Origin: Enterobacterales bacterium
GTDB lineage: Bacteria > Pseudomonadota > Gammaproteobacteria > Enterobacterales > Kangiellaceae
DNA length: 64,000 nt
Direction: 5' to 3'
NCBI GenBank assembly: GCA_030949565.1
Contig: JAUZSK010000060.1
Coordinates: 1-64,000 of the forward strand
Shown here: positions 19,818 through 55,745 of the stretch, piece after piece
Numbering within the stretch: position 1 is the first letter of the stretch
How the letters are laid out: every line of letters begins with the position of its first letter
Program-made: the position numbers and the translations under genes
Notes under the pieces: model-generated
Database searches by the model: none
Seen by the model: the letters and a program-made list of their open reading frames with translations, nothing else
What the model was told of the DNA's origin: nothing

Positions 19818-21161
19818 ATGATAAAAATAACTAAAGGTCTGGCGCTGCCAATAACTGGTTCGCCAGACCAGCAAATTGTGGATGCTGCTGAAGTCTCAGA
19901 AGTTGCTTTACTGGGTGAAGATTACCTTGATCTTAAAGCCAAAATGATTATTCGTATAGGGCATAAAGTGAAGTGTGGCGACCCTATTTGGAGTGACAAA
20001 AAGAATGAAGGAGTGATATTTACAGCTCCGGCAAGTGGCACCATCACCCATATAAACCGAGGCGCCAAGCGCAAGCTGTTATCGGTGGTGATTCAGGTTG
20101 AGGGCAATGAATATAAAGAGTTCAAACGTTACCCCGAATCGGAGCTTGATAGCTTAAAACGAGACGATGTGGTCAAAAATTTACTTGAATCCGGATTATG
20201 GCCCGCTTTTCGCACTCGCCCCTACAGTAAAATACCAGCGGTCGATAGTCAACCCAACGCGATTTTTGTGTCGATGATGGATACCAATCCGCTAGCGCCC
20301 GATCCACTGGTGATTATCCCTGAAAAAGCATCAATGTTTAATTATGGATTGAGCATTATTAAACATTTGACTGAGGGAGAGGTTTTTGTGGCCCATGATG
20401 CAGCAAAAGATCTTCCTATCCCGAAAAACCCAGTAGCCAATTACCAATCATTTAGCGGTGTTCATCCCGCTGGCAATGTTGGGACCCATATTCATTTTCT
20501 TAAGCCGGTCAATTCAAAACGCTGTGTGTGGCACATTGGCTACCAAGATGTGGTTGCTATTGGCGAGCTTTTTGTGAGTGGGCGGCTTAATTGTCAACGA
20601 GTGGTGTCTTTGGCTGGTCCTGTGGTGAATAATCCTCGATTAGTTCGTTTAATACAGGGTTCACGATTACGAGCGGTGGTCGGAGAGGATATCGATACTA
20701 GCGATCGACGGGTTATTTCGGGCTCGGTATTTAATGGTCATATTGCTACCGGGCATCGTGGTTATTTAGGGCGCTACCATAACCAGATTAGTGTTCTCAA
20801 AGAAGGGCGTGAAAAAGAGTTATTTGGCTGGCTTCATCTAGGACGAGAAAAATTCTCTGTGACACGCGCTTTTATCTCTCATTTAACCGGTAAAAAACGT
20901 TTTGACATGACCACCTCCACTCATGGTAGTGAACGAGCGATTATGCCCATAGGCAGTTTTGAGCGACTCATGCCTTGGGATATTTTGCCCACTCAACTGC
21001 TAAGAGCTTTGGTGGTGGGTGATACTGAAACAGCACAGCAACTGGGTTGCCTAGAATTTGATGAAGAAGATCTAGCTCTTTGTACTTTTGCTTGCCCAGG
21101 GAAATATGAATATGGTCCCATTTTGCGCGACGCTCTAACTCGTATAGAGAAGGAAGGCTAA
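19818..21161 (+). CDS. nqrA: Na+-NQR subunit A
   Basis: NqrA is the peripheral cytoplasmic subunit of the Na+-translocating NADH:quinone reductase and takes part in quinone binding. The 447-residue length is standard. It starts with MIKITKGLALPITG and contains FTAPASGTITHINRGAKR, GLWPAFRTRPYSKIP, FVSMMDTNPLAPDP and the C-terminal CTFACPGKYEYGP. It overlaps nqrB by one base and is the first gene of nqrABCDEF-apbE-nqrM. Confidence 0.97.
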   Translation: MIKITKGLALPITGSPDQQIVDAAEVSEVALLGEDYLDLKAKMIIRIGHKVKCGDPIWSDKKNEGVIFTAPASGTITHINRGAKRKLLSVVIQVEGNEYKEFKRYPESELDSLKRDDVVKNLLESGLWPAFRTRPYSKIPAVDSQPNAIFVSMMDTNPLAPDPLVIIPEKASMFNYGLSIIKHLTEGEVFVAHDAAKDLPIPKNPVANYQSFSGVHPAGNVGTHIHFLKPVNSKRCVWHIGYQDVVAIGELFVSGRLNCQRVVSLAGPVVNNPRLVRLIQGSRLRAVVGEDIDTSDRRVISGSVFNGHIATGHRGYLGRYHNQISVLKEGREKELFGWLHLGREKFSVTRAFISHLTGKKRFDMTTSTHGSERAIMPIGSFERLMPWDILPTQLLRALVVGDTETAQQLGCLEFDEEDLALCTFACPGKYEYGPILRDALTRIEKEG

Positions 21162-22362
21162 TGAAAAGTTTACGAGAAACAATTGACCGCCTAGAACCCC
21201 ATTTTGAGAAGGGAGGGAAATATGAAAAGTGGTATGCCCTCTATGAAGCTGCGACCACTATTTTATACACTCCAGGGCATGTCACTCGCAGCGCTTCACA
21301 TGTGCGCGATAGTATTGACCTTAAGCGCATTATGATTTTTGTTTGGGCCTGTACTTTCCCGGCCATGTTTTGGGGTATGTATAACATCGGCTTTCAAACG
21401 ATTGACGCAATGAATGCTGGTGGCGCTGTTTATTTGGATGGCGTGCGTGGCTGGGTAATGGATTTGGTCGGCGCCAGTTATTCTAAGGACATCACAAGCT
21501 CCTTATTTATTGGCGCGCTTTATTTTGTTCCCATTTATGCCACGGCTTTTATTGTTGGCGGATTTTGGGAAGTCTTGTTTGCCTCTATCCGTGGCCATGA
21601 ATCAATGAAGGGTTTTTTGTAACCTCTATTTTGTTTGCGCTGATTTTACCACCTGATATTCCCCTTTGGCAGGTTGCGCTCGGTATCAGTTTTGGTGTTG
21701 TGATGGCTAAGGAAGTGTTTGGCGGAACCGGTAAAAATTTCCTTAATCCGGCGTTAGCTGGACGTGCTTTTTTGTTTTTCGCATATCCCGGCGATATGTC
21801 GGGCGAAGTTTGGAATGTGGTGGACGGGTATTCTGGAGCAACGCCATTAGTTAATGCAGCTCAGGGGCAGTTAAGTTATATCATTGATCAAAATTGGTGG
21901 GATGCTTTCTATGGCCTCATACCGGGATCGATTGGAGAAGTATCCACTCTAATGATTTTAATCGGTGGTTTCTTATTAATTTACCTGCGAATCGCTGCGT
22001 TACGCATTGTAGTAGGTGTATTTGTTGGAATGTTAGCCACCTCCTATTTACTCAATTGGATTGGTAGCGATACTAACCCAATGTTTGCCATGCCTTGGTA
22101 TTGGCATCTGGTTACCGGAGGTTTTGCCTTTGGCATGATGTTTATGGCGACCGATCCGGTATCGGCGGCAATGACCGATCGAGGAAAGCTATATTTTGGT
22201 TTTTTAATTGGCTTTATGTGCGTTTTTATTCGGGTACTTAATCCGGCATTTCCAGAAGGCATGATGTTAGCAATCTTATTTGCCAATTTATTTGCACCTT
22301 TAATTGATCATCTGGTTGTTCAGGCCAATATTAAACGGAGGGCAAAACGCTATGCCAACTGA
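21161..22362 (+). CDS. nqrB: Na+-NQR subunit B; one frame break
   Basis: NqrB is a large membrane subunit carrying covalent FMN and riboflavin and forms much of the Na+ path. The frame is broken at the T6 run 21613-21618; one more T gives [20 protein letters not shown], the normal NqrB sequence, and about 400 residues. The FMN-attachment motif is present as YSGATPLV. It overlaps nqrA (1 base) and nqrC (11 bases). Because the rest of the operon is intact and tightly packed, I infer a sequencing deletion and not loss of function. Confidence 0.92.
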
Positions 22363-28190: not shown

Positions 28191-31100
28191 CTATTTCTTC
28201 AATCCAACTAGCTGGCAAACCCGATGCTTATGATTAAAGCCTTTTAGCAAGACTTCCGTCAGTTCAGAAAACTCAAATTGGTCGCGACATTGAGCGTAGA
28301 TAGGATAGCTAACAGTGATCTCACCGGCACTACAATAACTTTCTAGGCGTGCGGCAAAATTAACCCCGCTACCGACGGCGCGGAATGCGACAATATCTTT
28401 GGAACCAAAATTACCAACAGTGGCAAAATCTTGATGAACGCCTATTCGTAGTTGAACGCTGTGGTCAAACCCGGCTTCGAGCCATTTTTCTGAAAGCTCG
28501 GTCATTGCTTGCTGCATTTTTAAAGATAGACTCGCCGCATTTTGCGCTTGCTGCTGCTTGGTCATGTTATCCAGTGCACCAAACAGAACCACTAAACCAT
28601 CACCTAAAATCTCATTTAAAATCCCCTGATGCTGCTCAACTAATTCGCCCATTCTACCGAGAAAGCTATTGAGGATATCAGTAATAGCTTCCGGCTCAAA
28701 ACGATCGGAAACGGAGGTGAAGCCCGCGAGATCTGCAAATAAAATGGTAATTTGTTTGCGTTGAGCAACAAGAGGGTTATCTTGATCATTGGTAATAATT
28801 TGGTTAACCATTTGTTTTGGGAAATATTTGCCCAATCTTTCGCAAGCCTGTTGCAGTGTTTTGGTATGCTCTTTTTGTCGCTTAGCTTCAACTAATCCTC
28901 CCAGTAGCAACATGGTATGGATTCGACTGAGTAGGACTTCTCTTTCGATAGGCTTAGTTACATAATCATTGGCTCCAGCTTCAAAACCGGCCTTAACATC
29001 TCCAGGCTGATTTCTAGCAGACAAAAGTAAAATAGGTAATTCAACTGCGCTATATTTTTGGCGTAATTTTTTGGTGACTTGGTAGCCTGACATGCCGGGC
29101 ATCATGATGTCTAAAATGGCTAAGTCAAACTTTTCTTTTAGTCCCAACTCTGTTGCTTCTATTCCATCTTTTGTGCTACTGACTTGGTACTGATTCATTT
29201 GCAGTAGGTCTGTCAGCACTTGCAAATTGATCGGGTCATCATCGGCAATTAGTATGCTTCCCTTGTATTGACTAGTGTCATTATTTTTACCATCTTTAAT
29301 CGGCTTTTGAACGGGCTCTGAATGATTTGACTGAGTATCAACATTGTGGCTATTGAGAAAAAATTCTGGTTCATCGGCTAATTGCTGTTTGCTTTGTCCG
29401 TGCTGGTTTTCTAGCCAGCAGGGGAGCGTAAAGTAGAATTTTGAACCCACATCAATAGTTGACTGAACCCAAATCTGCCCCTCATGTTGCTCGATTAATT
29501 GACGTGTAACTGACAGGCCCAGACCGGTGCCTTTTTGTGATACCTTATCTGAAATATCTAATTGCTCAAAAGGTATAAAAATTTCCTCGACATTAGCTGA
29601 ATTAATTCCGATTCCGCTATCAGCAACACAGATTTCGATTTCATTAATGTTGACCCTGGCTGAAATACTAATTTCGCCTTTAATAGTGTACTTAATGGCA
29701 TTACCAATAAGATTATGAAAAATTTGTTGTAATCGATCTTCATCAGCATAAACTAATGGTAAATCTTTTGGTAAATGGTTTCTTAGCGCTAAATTTTTAT
29801 GTTCAGCTAATGGTTTTAGGAGGCTAACAACGACATTTAAAACACTGTGTAGGTCAACCGCTTTACGTTGTAAAACAAGCGTATGATGGGTTAGCTTTTT
29901 GAAATCTAGAATGTCATTGATTAGTTGTGCTAAACGCTTGCCGCCATCGATGATTAAACCTAAATCGTTTAGTGTTTTAGCACTTTGCAGGCCTGCACTA
30001 CCTTCTTTTAATGACTCAGCGATACCAATAATACCATTGAGCGGAGTTCTTAATTCATGTGAGGTGTTGGCTAAAAACTCATCTTTTAACTGGTCGACGC
30101 GCCTCAAGTGTTGGTTAATCGTTTGTTGTTCTCGCAAGGTCTTTTTATGCCGATAAAACAAATAGAAAAGTAGCGCAGTCAATAGTAAAGCATAAATGAC
30201 AAAAGCCCACCATGTCATCCAAAGTGGTGGTAAAATAATGAGCTTAAACGATAATATTTGTTCAGACCAAATGCCATGGCTATTGGTTGCTTGAAGCTGA
30301 AAAGTATATTGTTTAGGATCAAGGTTAGTAAAAGCCGCTTGATTAGGGCTAGAAACTTCAAGCCATTGCTTATTATCCGGCAGTAAACGATAACGGAAAC
30401 GATTGCGGTTAACATGACGAAAATCGAGTGAGGCGAACTCAAAAACCACATTGTTTTTATTATAGTCAAGATTCAGTGATTGGATATTAAGTTGAACGCC
30501 AGCAGGTTTATATTTTTTACCTAAAATTGAAAGTGAAGTAATGACCACGGGGGGAATCAAAATCTGTTTGTTTCTGTTCAGTAGCAGAGACCACAGCGAC
30601 ACCTTTAACACTACCAAAATAGATCTTCCCATCGCTTGCTCGGGTGACCGCATTACCGTTAAATTCATTAGCGGGTAATCCATCCTCGGTTGAAAAGTTT
30701 TTAAATTTTTGATGACGCGGATCAAACCGGGAAATACCGTTATTGGTGCTAAGCCATAGGTGACCATTGGCATCATTCGCGATGCCGTAAATAGCAGCGT
30801 TGGGCAATCCATCTTTTTCAAGGTAGCGTGTAAAATAGTTGCTTCCACTGGCAATTGAACTGGCCGATAGAAGATTTAATCCGTTAAATGTTCCTACCCA
30901 AAGTGCCCCTTTGGCATCCATAAATAAAGACCGCACGGTATCATTGGATAGGGAGTGAAGGTCACCGGGTTTATTTCTAAAACTAGTGATTCGATCAAAT
31001 TCTGGATCGTATTTCTGTAATCCTTTATTCCAAGTGCCAAACCAAATATTTCCTTGATGATCTTGCAGCATCGTGCGAACAGTCGTTTCACCGAGTTTAC

Positions 31101-32619
31101 CATCCTCTGCAAAGCGGAAGTCTTTTATGATTTTTTGCTGGCTGGGATTTATTTTGAGTAAACCATCATCGGTCCCAACCCATATATAACCAAAGCGGTC
31201 GCTTTCAACCATCCGAATTCGATTATAACTAACATAGCCTGTTGGAAATCCTTTGCGAGTAATGGTTCGCGTGGTAGATGTTTGTAGTGAGTAGACCGCC
31301 AATTGTCCTTGCTGGTTGCCAAACCACAAATTACCTTTTTGGTCAAAAGCAAAAGACTGAATTCGGTTTCCTATTGCGCGTTTACGCTGGTCGATAAATT
31401 GACTAAGGTGGGAAAACTGGTCGGTTTTTGGGTTATATCGGTCGAGCCCGTTGAGCGTGGCGAACCAGATATTTGCTTGAGAGTCTTCTTCAATATCCCA
31501 CACAAACTCATGTGAAAGGCCGTTCTTTTGATAAGGCGAATGAGTTAAACGAGAAAATTGGTTGTCGAATGAAAGCGTAGTATTAAGACCACCACCGGCA
31601 GTGCCAATCCAAATTAATCCAGAGCGATCTTGATACAACGACCAGACATCATTAATACTGAGGCTGTGTGCGTCGGAGGAATTTCGTTTAAAACTTAAGA
31701 ATTTTTTATCGCCTTTGCGTCTGACATTAAGGCCGCCTTCTTCGGTTGCGATCCAAAGGTCGCCATTTTTTACGCGTAAAATATTTCGAACATCATTAAA
31801 ACTTAAACTGTTAGAATCGCCTTTTTTATGACTAAAATGCTCAAAACCTTTGCGCATATCTTTAAGGTGAAATAGGCCATCATAACGTGTACCTATCCAA
31901 AGGCTTTTATCGGTATCGAGAAATATATCGTTGATCTGGTTGGGGCTCTTACCCTGTTGCATATAGGTAAAAATTTGTTGCTCCAAATTAAAATGAGCTA
32001 ACATTTCATTACTTGCGACCCACAGGTTGCCTTCACCATCGTCTTCAATATCGACAATTGAACCGGGTGGAAGGGATTGAGCATCCAGAGGATTATTGTA
32101 AAAACGCGCAAAGGCTTGTTTATCTGGCAGGTATAGATTGAGTCCGTGATTAGTGCCAATCCAAATACGTCCTTTGGTATCTTGATGAATGACTTGTACT
32201 TGAGCATGACTGAGGCTGTCGAAGTCATCATTTTTTGAAATAAATCGAGTAAATTGCCCGGTTTTTGGATTAAAACGATTAACGCCATTTTGCGCCGTCG
32301 CAACCCATAAATAGCCAAGGTTATCTTCAATAATGGAGACAACAATGTTATTTGACAGTGAATTGGGATCACTAGGATCGTTTTTAAAAGTAATAAATTG
32401 ATAGCCATCAAAACGACTAAGACCGCCGTAGGTTCCAAACCACATAAAGCCTTGACTATCTTGAAAAATAACATTGATAGTGCTTTGTGGTAAACCTTCT
32501 TCTGTGCCAAGATGCTGAAAACTGACTGAATCTCTGGCAGCCTGCAAGGGCGCCGATAAAAAAGCGAAAAAGAGGCTTAAAATAGCGATAAATTGGGTTG
32601 TAAGGCCTGTTATTTTCAA
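28191..32619 (-). CDS. Hybrid two-component sensor with beta-propeller, kinase, receiver and class III cyclase; one frame break
   Basis: Two overlapping frames join at the G6 run 30549-30554; removing one base gives about 1,475 residues. After a signal peptide (1-27) come about 14 propeller repeats of the DxxGxLWxGT type (Reg_prop, to residue about 690) and a Y_Y_Y domain. A membrane helix follows at about 807 (WWAFVIYALLLTALLFYLFY). HisKA shows NTSHELRTPLNG (phospho-accepting His), then HATPase with NLIGNAIKYT and GTGLGL, and a receiver with LAILDIMMPGMSG. The C-terminus is a class III nucleotide cyclase: both metal aspartates (LFADLAGFTS, LGDGLVVLFG) and the N/R pair (VNFAARLE) are present. 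The gene is monocistronic. Periplasmic ligand unknown; possibly a polysaccharide, as for related hybrid sensors. Confidence 0.9.
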
Positions 32620-32729: not shown

Positions 32730-34028
32730 ATGAGACTAGCCATGTCGCAGTTATCTGATACCAATATTACAGAACAACGCTCACTGGATTCAATCCCTAA
32801 CGCACCCGATCGTAATAAACCCATTGGTTTTTTATTGCGCTTGGCCAAGGCCTTGCATACCTATGGCCTACCTGCCTATGAGTTAGAGCAAACAATGAAT
32901 GGCTGTGCCGAAGCATTGGGTTACGGCATTCAGTGTATGTCCTTACCGACATCTATTAGTATGACCATTTTACCACCTGACAATGAACCAAAAACCTATC
33001 TGATTCGTGTCGCACCGGGAGAAATAAACCTCGATCGTCTGCGTAAAACCACTGAGGTTGCACGGCATGTTATCGAAGAGCAGATTAACGCTGAACAAGG
33101 GGCTAATCTATTGAAGCAAATTGCCAAGGTGCAGCCTGATTATCCCTATTGGGTGATTGTGATTGCTTTTGCGGTGGTTTCTGGTTGTATTTCTCGGATA
33201 TTTTTTGGTGGACTAAATGAAATGGCGGTTTCTACGCTGATTGGTGGCGTGGTAGGAATGATTGCAGTAGCATCGAAAACTCGACCCATGATCGATCACC
33301 TGTTACCGGCTATTTGTGCTTTTGTTGCCACCTGGATGGCGCTTTGGATTGATCATCATTGGCAATTACAAATGACTACCTCAGTGGTTATCATTTCAGG
33401 ATTGATTATTCTGTTGCCGGGGTTATCCCTAACCATTGCTTTAACCGAACTGGCGACCCAAAATTTGGTCTCGGGAACAGCCCGTTTGTCAGGCACTGCA
33501 ACCACCTTTATTCAATTGGCTTTTGGTAGCGCTCTGGGGGTTGAGTTAGCCTCACGTTTTGGTTACCACATTAACCAATCGGGCCTTAGTCCAGTGGCGC
33601 CTTGGAGTGTGTTTTTAGCCGTCGCTATTGCATCTCTGGCTTTAGTGCCACTTTTTTCCGCACGTATTCGCGATACGGGTTGGTTTCTATTAGCCGCTTT
33701 GACCGCATTTAGTGTGGTACATTTTGCTACATTAAGCCTTGGCGCATCTTTAGGGGCTTTTGCTGGAGCAATTAGCGTTGGGCTTTTGGCAAGAGTGGTT
33801 ACTCACTTTTTTGATGTTCCCGGCGCCATGATTATGATGCCCGGATTCATTATACTGGTCCCCGGCACCGTGGGTTATCGTAGTATTTTGGCTTTAGTGG
33901 AAAAGGATGTCATTGCTGGTCTAGCGACTGCGTTTGAGGTAGGTGTGATTGGTATTTCATTGGTTGCAGGGTTTTTGATATCTTCCTTGGTACCCTTGCC
34001 TAAAGACGCGTCAAAAGATCAATATTAA
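32730..34028 (+). CDS. Threonine/serine exporter family protein (ThrE type)
   Basis: The 432-residue membrane protein has a cytoplasmic N-terminal part (GFLLRLAKALHTYGLPAYELEQTM, about residues 30-55) typical of the ThrE PF06738 domain. About ten hydrophobic helices follow from residue 140 on. The second half (from about residue 290) repeats the fold with VPGAMIMMPGFIILVPGTVGYRSI, as in the PF12821-type half. Both halves are fused, as in Corynebacterium ThrE. The start could be residue 1 or the ATG four codons on (32742). The substrate is inferred only from the family. Confidence 0.8.
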   Translation: MRLAMSQLSDTNITEQRSLDSIPNAPDRNKPIGFLLRLAKALHTYGLPAYELEQTMNGCAEALGYGIQCMSLPTSISMTILPPDNEPKTYLIRVAPGEINLDRLRKTTEVARHVIEEQINAEQGANLLKQIAKVQPDYPYWVIVIAFAVVSGCISRIFFGGLNEMAVSTLIGGVVGMIAVASKTRPMIDHLLPAICAFVATWMALWIDHHWQLQMTTSVVIISGLIILLPGLSLTIALTELATQNLVSGTARLSGTATTFIQLAFGSALGVELASRFGYHINQSGLSPVAPWSVFLAVAIASLALVPLFSARIRDTGWFLLAALTAFSVVHFATLSLGASLGAFAGAISVGLLARVVTHFFDVPGAMIMMPGFIILVPGTVGYRSILALVEKDVIAGLATAFEVGVIGISLVAGFLISSLVPLPKDASKDQY

Positions 34029-54688: not shown

Positions 54689-55745
54689 ATGTCAACAACG
54701 AAAGTATCGATCATAGGTGGCGCAGGATATGGTGCTGCCGAAATTCTCCGTCACCTGCTAGCAAGAGAAGATGTCGAAGTGTTACGCATCTCTAGCAAAG
54801 ACTATATTGGCCAAAGCGTGAGCCAAGTGCATCGTAATTTACCCGGCTATAATGAAATTAAAATGCAGGATATTTCACCTCAAGCCTGTGCTGAGGGTGC
54901 TGATATCCTGTTTCTTGCTATGCCGCATATCATCACTGCTAAAGTCGCTATGCAACTGTTTGATTTGGATGTTAAATTAATTGATCTCTCTGGTGATTTC
55001 CGATTAGATAATTTAAAGGACTACATCCGAGACTATGCACCACAGCATCCCTGCCCAGAGCGACTCGGTAGCTTTGTTTATGGTATGCCAGAGCTTAATG
55101 CTGAATCTCAAAGATGCAAAGCATGTGGCAAGTCCTGGTTGCTTTGCCACCGGAATTGCCATGGGCTTGTTACCGCTCGCCAAGGCCGGGCTGCTAAAAT
55201 CAGTCAATGTTCGAACCGTAGCAATGACAGGCTCTTCAGGTTCAGGCGTAAAACCCCAAGCTGGCACACATCACGCTATTCGAGTGAACAACCTAAAGCC
55301 CTACAAGGCACTGCATCACCAGCATCGAGCCGAAATCGTACAGACCTTAACTAAAGCCGGCGGTGATCAAATTGCGTTAGATTTTGTGCCTGTTTCTGCA
55401 CCCTTAGTCAGAGGCATATTAGCCGTTAGTCAACTAGATTTACCGCTAGATCACGACCAGAACAGCATCCAAGCCTTGTATGAAAACTACTATGCGGATC
55501 ATTTTCTAACGCAAGTGAGACCAGCCGGAAGTGCCGCAGAAGTGGTTGCCGTTTCAGGCACCGCTAGAGTTGAGATTAGCATCGATACACGAGTGGACGA
55601 AGATACCGGCAAGCGCACTCTCTGTGTCACTAGTGCGATTGATAACTTGATAAAAGGTGGCGCAGGACAAGCCATCCAATCGTTTAATCTAATGACCGGA
55701 AAAGCCGCTCACTTCGGTTTAGATAACCCGGGTTTGTGGCCTTAA
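54689..55745 (+). CDS. argC: N-acetyl-gamma-glutamyl-phosphate reductase; one frame break
   Basis: ArgC reduces N-acetylglutamyl phosphate to the semialdehyde in arginine synthesis. Start MSTTKVSIIGGAGYGAAEILR gives the NADP-binding loop. The frame is lost at about 55105-55109: adding CT (or removing one T) joins MPELNAES to LKDAKHVASPGCFATG with the catalytic cysteine. Later parts TGSSGSGVKPQAGTHHA, FVPVSAPLVRGIL and AIDNLIKGGAGQAIQ are normal. About 351-352 residues result. argB follows after 16 bases. Most likely a sequence error, here not a mononucleotide run. Confidence 0.9.

Follow-up and report, generated by a model that had tools for sequence, protein, structure and literature searches.

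The sensor-cyclase gene and its frame break

The window analysed in this study is a 64,000-nucleotide stretch from the genome of a marine Kangiellaceae bacterium (contig JAUZSK010000060.1). On its minus strand, a sensor-cyclase gene spans positions 28191-32619, and the coordinates and strand given in the original prediction hold. The region is not one open frame and consists of two overlapping ORFs in different frames. The first, P0001 (30517-32619, minus strand, 700 aa, TTG start), has a hydrophobic N-terminus followed by Reg_prop beta-propeller repeats, which were matched in a profile search at E=3e-68. The second, P0002 (28191-30854, minus strand), is 887 aa as listed, with true homology starting near residue 100, and carries a Y_Y_Y domain, a transmembrane segment, a histidine kinase, a receiver, and a cyclase. 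The frame breaks between the propeller and the Y_Y_Y-kinase-receiver-cyclase part at a C6 run (30549-30554, minus strand), and the end of P0001 is read in the wrong frame (DFDSP, then RGHYFTFNFR and a stop). When one C was removed to leave C5, the joint read ...TDFDSPVVITSLSILG... and aligned to the orthologues without a gap.

Two other genes of the window are also split. In nqrB (21161-22362), two ORFs match consecutive parts of PF03116 with a break near 21600. In asd (aspartate-semialdehyde dehydrogenase, 54689-55745), the NAD-binding and dimerisation domains lie in overlapping ORFs of different frames, probably through another assembly indel. A Crp-type regulator gene of the same genome, located on contig C69, is likewise frame-split. 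It is conceivable that this copy is a real pseudogene, or that the C6 run is a site of programmed or phase-variable frameshifting, either of which would be compatible with the other readings discussed below. The frame is indeed broken at a homopolymer, but three more genes in the assembly are split alike, two of them housekeeping genes, and the break is absent from every full-length orthologue, so this explanation is rather doubtful. Since the orthologues are unbroken and nqrB, asd, and the C69 regulator are split too, the frame break at C6 is likeliest an assembly error. The original prediction of one polypeptide therefore stands for the family, in which 15 orthologues are unbroken single frames of 1460-1494 aa, and is not confirmed for the sequence as given.

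The domains were ordered by profile search as Reg_prop propeller, Y_Y_Y, HisKA, HATPase_c, Response_reg, and Guanylate_cyc, all encoded on the minus strand; the propeller, histidine kinase, receiver, and class III cyclase that had been predicted were thus all recovered. The Y_Y_Y domain (30234-30410), a profile match, would be periplasmic by the topology inferred from the transmembrane segment. This segment, the predicted helix WWAFVIYALLLTALLFYLF (30156-30212; Kyte-Doolittle 2.1), is the single strong transmembrane stretch and is placed between Y_Y_Y and the kinase. HisKA (29889-30086) carries the phospho-acceptor His in SHELRTP, the N and G boxes of HATPase_c (29421-29744) are intact, and the receiver (28920-29255) has its DD, phospho-Asp, Ser, and Lys, so that the residues expected of a hybrid histidine kinase are present. 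The kinase His, the ATP-site Asn and Asp, the receiver residues including the phospho-Asp and Lys, and the cyclase residues were invariant in 17 sequences. The class III nucleotidyl cyclase domain (Guanylate_cyc, 28227-28763) was matched at E=1.3e-23, and its AlphaFold model, a monomer, had a pLDDT of 90.8. No propeller-cyclase fusions were found in the literature search.

The divergent neighbour of the gene encodes a ThrE-family threonine/serine exporter (32730-34028, plus strand). An exporter of this type adjoins the sensor-cyclase gene in 14 of 16 orthologous loci, and a shared promoter region or a functional link is possible. A search with a simple consensus for CRP-binding sites upstream of this gene, a possible sign of control by cAMP, gave no match in the window or in 16 orthologues.

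Base-recognition residues of the cyclase and their phylogeny

The original prediction placed a Glu at the position of the adenine-recognising Lys and an Arg at the second recognition position, with the metal-binding Asps and the Asn/Arg pair kept. We aligned the domain with three solved cyclases using HMMER, and no gaps occurred at either recognition site. The Glu in LNEILGDG (E59 of P0003; 28611-28613, minus strand) occupies the first base-recognition position, which is Lys in adenylyl cyclases, and corresponded to the Lys of CyaB (3R5G, GTIDKFVGD) and CyaC (1WC1, GTVDKFVGD) and to the Glu of the guanylyl cyclase Cya2 (2W01, GTIDEFMGD). The Arg in AFRAVGSGVN (R136 of P0003; 28380-28382, minus strand) occupies the second position, Thr or Asp in adenylyl cyclases and Cys or Gly in known guanylyl cyclases, and corresponded to the Thr of CyaB (MDYTIIG) and CyaC (SDFTAIG) and to the Gly of Cya2 (TKYGVVG). 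Both assignments were therefore borne out, and the catalytic residues were found as predicted. The predicted structure matched CyaB (Z 29.6), CyaC (27.9), and Cya2 (27.1) over nearly the whole domain. The domain thus has the Guanylate_cyc fold, the two metal Asps, and the transition-state Asn and Arg of a class III nucleotidyl cyclase, with Glu and Arg instead of the Lys and Thr/Asp of a canonical class IIIb adenylyl cyclase.

The Lys-to-Glu change sets guanylyl cyclases apart from adenylyl cyclases (PMC4215837, PMC7384201). In guanylyl cyclases of solved structure, this Glu is bonded to guanine N1/N2 and accounts for most of the GTP specificity, while the second residue varies (PMC7384201, PMC3591389) and may serve shape rather than form a bond (PMC7384201). 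The residues listed for guanylyl cyclases at the second position are C, S, T, H, A, and G, with Arg absent (PMC4215837). The domain studied here therefore shares the first residue of known guanylyl cyclases, and its invariant Arg falls outside the listed second residues.

Glu and Arg (the E/R pair) were invariant in 19 of 19 aligned orthologous cyclase domains. The same held for the two metal Asps, for the Asn and Arg of the transition state, and for the equivalents of the triphosphate Arg and the gamma-phosphate Lys. All eight catalytic and base positions lay among the 55 invariant of 198 positions (hypergeometric 2.4e-5, n=19 orthologues), a crude measure in that invariant columns cluster in the core. 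The catalytic residues were kept in sequences down to about 50% identity. As all kinase, receiver, and catalytic residues are invariant, the enzyme is likely to be active, and these sequences are best read as those of a working cyclase that recognises its base in a non-standard way and takes its input from the receiver. One E/R member of 1587 aa (L053:876-5636) has Ile in place of the transition-state Asn, and that copy may be impaired.

The E/R pair was rare in two samples of best-scoring matches, which are not a full census: of the 80 top-scoring relatives from the genome collection, only the six closest had it (K/T was present in 59 of the aligned domains), and 30 further loci of the class had other pairs, including E/A, E/G, and E/D, with no E/R outside the window gene. 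The two of these six that were profile-checked (L052 and L053) share the propeller-kinase-receiver-cyclase architecture. Across the family, an E/R cyclase was found in 18 of 40 genomes and in none of a Kangiella-like genus. A DNA pattern for the pair, run over 398 genomes of the phylum, matched only in the genome that the window comes from; this is weak evidence, the pattern being narrow and the set being without other genomes of the family.

A tree of 132 cyclase domains grouped the E/R members in one clade (support 100/98), and the pair occurred in none of about 105 other cyclases. The sister of this clade is a Q/T cyclase (L129/L188) on a hybrid kinase without a propeller, and the next branch is an R/T cyclase (L054) of an acidobacterium, with CyaB nearby. 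The nearest relatives of the E/R lineage have thus lost the Lys as well. The acidobacterial protein (L054:1041-5600) has the propeller-kinase-receiver-cyclase architecture with Arg and Thr at the recognition positions. Cya2 and most other Glu-bearing cyclases were placed elsewhere in the tree. Because the E/R clade and Cya2 lie in different places, the Glu of the E/R clade arose, judging from the tree, separately from that of Cya2, and descent from Cya2-type guanylyl cyclases was ruled out.

Two canonical adenylyl cyclases, one K/D and one K/T, are also encoded in the genome itself, as is a true CRP (L005), so a separate cAMP channel already exists. One own-genome cyclase with the canonical K/D pair (L002, G000:C15:15276-15752) is followed by an apparent FHA domain.

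A Crp-type regulator linked to the cyclase

A co-occurring cyclic-nucleotide receptor had been proposed as a check, and a strong candidate was found in a Crp-type regulator of about 230 aa that carries a DNA-binding HTH. Its gene lies about 0.5-1 kb downstream of the cyclase gene on the same strand in ten orthologous loci (L037-L043, L046, L052, and L053), a genetic linkage of the CgrA type. These loci come from six family genomes and other lineages (G048, G049, L052, and L053). In the loci where this was examined, the two are separated by a Sel1-repeat gene of opposite orientation. The Q/T sister cyclase is also adjoined by a Crp-type gene, divergently placed. In the genome studied here, the regulator orthologue (L004/L209, G000:C69:27073-27725) is not beside the cyclase, and keeps the same Sel1 and HisA-like neighbours on contig C69. 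It is a different gene from the housekeeping CRP.

We examined the distribution of the two genes in 40 family genomes. Both were present in 17, the cyclase only in 1, the regulator only in 1, and neither in 21 (Fisher 3.5e-9). Nearly all of the genomes with neither gene belong to one Kangiella-like genus; with that genus left out, the association was not significant (Fisher p=0.19), as a single genome with neither gene then remains. The cyclase-only genome is 73% complete, and the regulator-only genome is 82% complete.

The regulator pocket has RTA in the phosphate-binding cassette and ATE in the C-helix in 18 of 18 family orthologues. All 19 homologues examined elsewhere in the class have RSA, mostly with LTEN or LTDN. 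RTA is also present in the CRP of the Kangiella-like genus, so it is not diagnostic and does not prove cGMP binding. The best alignments of the regulator were to CRP and Vfr. The Crp-type regulator is probably the dedicated receptor of the cyclase product; its pocket residues set it apart from the homologues but do not by themselves point to one ligand.

Substrate of the cyclase and comparison with known systems

We propose, with a probability of roughly 0.57, that the protein is a membrane hybrid histidine kinase with a class III cyclase output that makes cGMP from GTP, which is read by the Crp-type regulator. An external ligand would bind the periplasmic propeller, and the signal would pass through Y_Y_Y and the transmembrane helix to cause autophosphorylation of the kinase His. 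The phosphate would then move to the Asp of the adjacent receiver, and receiver phosphorylation would alter the geometry of the cyclase dimer via the short linker, turning it on or off. In the active site, the Glu would take hydrogen bonds from guanine N1/N2. The Arg, a donor at the site where known guanylyl cyclases have Cys, Ser, or Gly, would face guanine O6/N7. The dedicated Crp-type transcription factor, whose gene lies close to that of the cyclase in many relatives but on another contig in the genome studied here, would then read the product. The propeller ligand, the His-to-Asp phosphotransfer, the gating by phosphorylation, the GTP substrate, the Arg contact, and the role of the regulator as receptor are what we infer rather than observe. 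The predicted non-standard choice of base is most likely a choice of GTP, the substrate of guanylyl cyclases, and not of a more exotic nucleotide.

Several observations weigh against the cGMP proposal. Arg is not among the listed second residues of guanylyl cyclases (PMC4215837), and so large a side chain could pair with the Glu and occupy the space meant for the base. The R/T relative of the same architecture and the Q/T sister show drift of the pocket within this lineage, the transition-state Asn is missing from L053, and the reading frame is interrupted in this assembly. In a rival reading, the enzyme would be an adenylyl cyclase that accepts Glu/Arg and supplies cAMP to the Crp-type regulator, as P. 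aeruginosa CyaB serves Vfr. This would agree with the tree, in which CyaB is closer than Cya2 to the E/R clade, with CyaB being both the closest solved structure and the closest characterised relative (6.5e-36; Z 29.6), and with the alignment of the regulator to CRP and Vfr. We consider it unlikely, because every orthologue has an acidic residue where adenylyl cyclases have the Lys that bonds adenine N1, a change that distinguishes guanylyl from adenylyl cyclases (PMC4215837, PMC7384201), and two canonical adenylyl cyclases are already present in the genome.

The use of UTP, CTP, or several nucleotides, with the regulator reading an unusual cyclic nucleotide, is less likely still. Glu and Arg could pair with uracil (N3-H to Glu and O4 to Arg), the E/R pair was unique in the set examined, and a Pycsar PycC profile matched at 8.7e-24, a match that any class III cyclase may give; against this, guanine needs no new chemistry, the profile-checked neighbouring genes include no Pycsar effector, and the linked protein is a transcription factor. 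In its most specific form, Glu/Arg would read a base other than A or G, most plausibly uracil, since the Arg donor fits uracil O4 as well as guanine O6/N7, and would give a sensor-driven cyclic-UMP circuit with its own Crp-type factor apart from cAMP-CRP; we give this only a slight chance. A cyclase domain with little or no catalytic activity, serving instead for regulation or dimerisation, would fit an Arg that blocks the base and the missing Asn of L053. It is hard to reconcile with catalytic residues that are invariant down to about 50% identity and with the linked regulator of cyclic-nucleotide type, and we hold it to be very improbable.

A Pycsar defence cyclase was considered and rejected. 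PycC matches were obtained, but no TIR or membrane effector of the kind that reads cCMP or cUMP was found among the profile-checked window genes next to the cyclase, and in relatives the linked protein has a DNA-binding HTH. The PADLOC Pycsar PycC profiles match P0002 (28191-30854), a non-Pycsar cyclase, at the above value, and automatic defence annotation could mislabel such cyclases as PycC.

Bacterial cGMP signalling is documented in few systems only. If the proposed cGMP circuit is correct, the fixed and unlisted Glu/Arg pair would be a new solution to base selection in class III cyclases, the whole chain from sensor to cyclase would lie in one protein with a probable dedicated Crp-type receptor, and a cyclase paired with a Crp-type protein, much as in the CgrA circuit, would be known from another bacterial lineage. 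Cultured Aliikangiella strains hold intact genes, so direct testing is possible.

CyaB of Pseudomonas aeruginosa (3R5G) is the closest solved cyclase domain (32% identity, Z 29.6). It serves the Crp-type transcription factor Vfr and resembles the system proposed here in this pairing, whereas it is a Lys/Thr adenylyl cyclase not fused to a hybrid kinase. In CyaC of Arthrospira/Spirulina platensis, a class III cyclase is likewise joined to a histidine kinase and a receiver, and the cyclase (1WC0-1WC6) has the same fold. However, CyaC is a Lys/Thr adenylyl cyclase without a periplasmic propeller, in contrast to the Glu/Arg pair and propeller found here. Bacteroides HTCS proteins combine a Reg_prop propeller, Y_Y_Y, kinase, and receiver in one protein with an AraC-type DNA-binding output, whereas the C-terminal output here is a cyclase and not an AraC domain. 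Cya2 of Synechocystis (2W01) also has Glu at the first position and the same fold (Z 27.1), but has Gly rather than Arg at the second and belongs to a different clade.

In the gammaproteobacterium Xanthomonas campestris, XC_0250/XC_0249 links a class III guanylyl cyclase with a cNMP-binding protein (PMC3770947). XC_0250 differs in that it contains TPRs, has Ala as its second recognition residue, and lacks the Asn/Arg pair; the receptor for its product is a GGDEF protein. Among published circuits, the closest is RC1_3785-gcyB-gcyC-cgrA of Rhodospirillum centenum, in which cyclase genes are clustered with the cGMP-responsive Crp-type CgrA (PMC4681086, PMC10127613). The logic of a cyclase with a Crp-type regulator is alike in both. 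The R. centenum system belongs to a different lineage, the regulator described here is a putative cGMP receptor, and only here are the sensor, kinase, receiver, and cyclase one protein.
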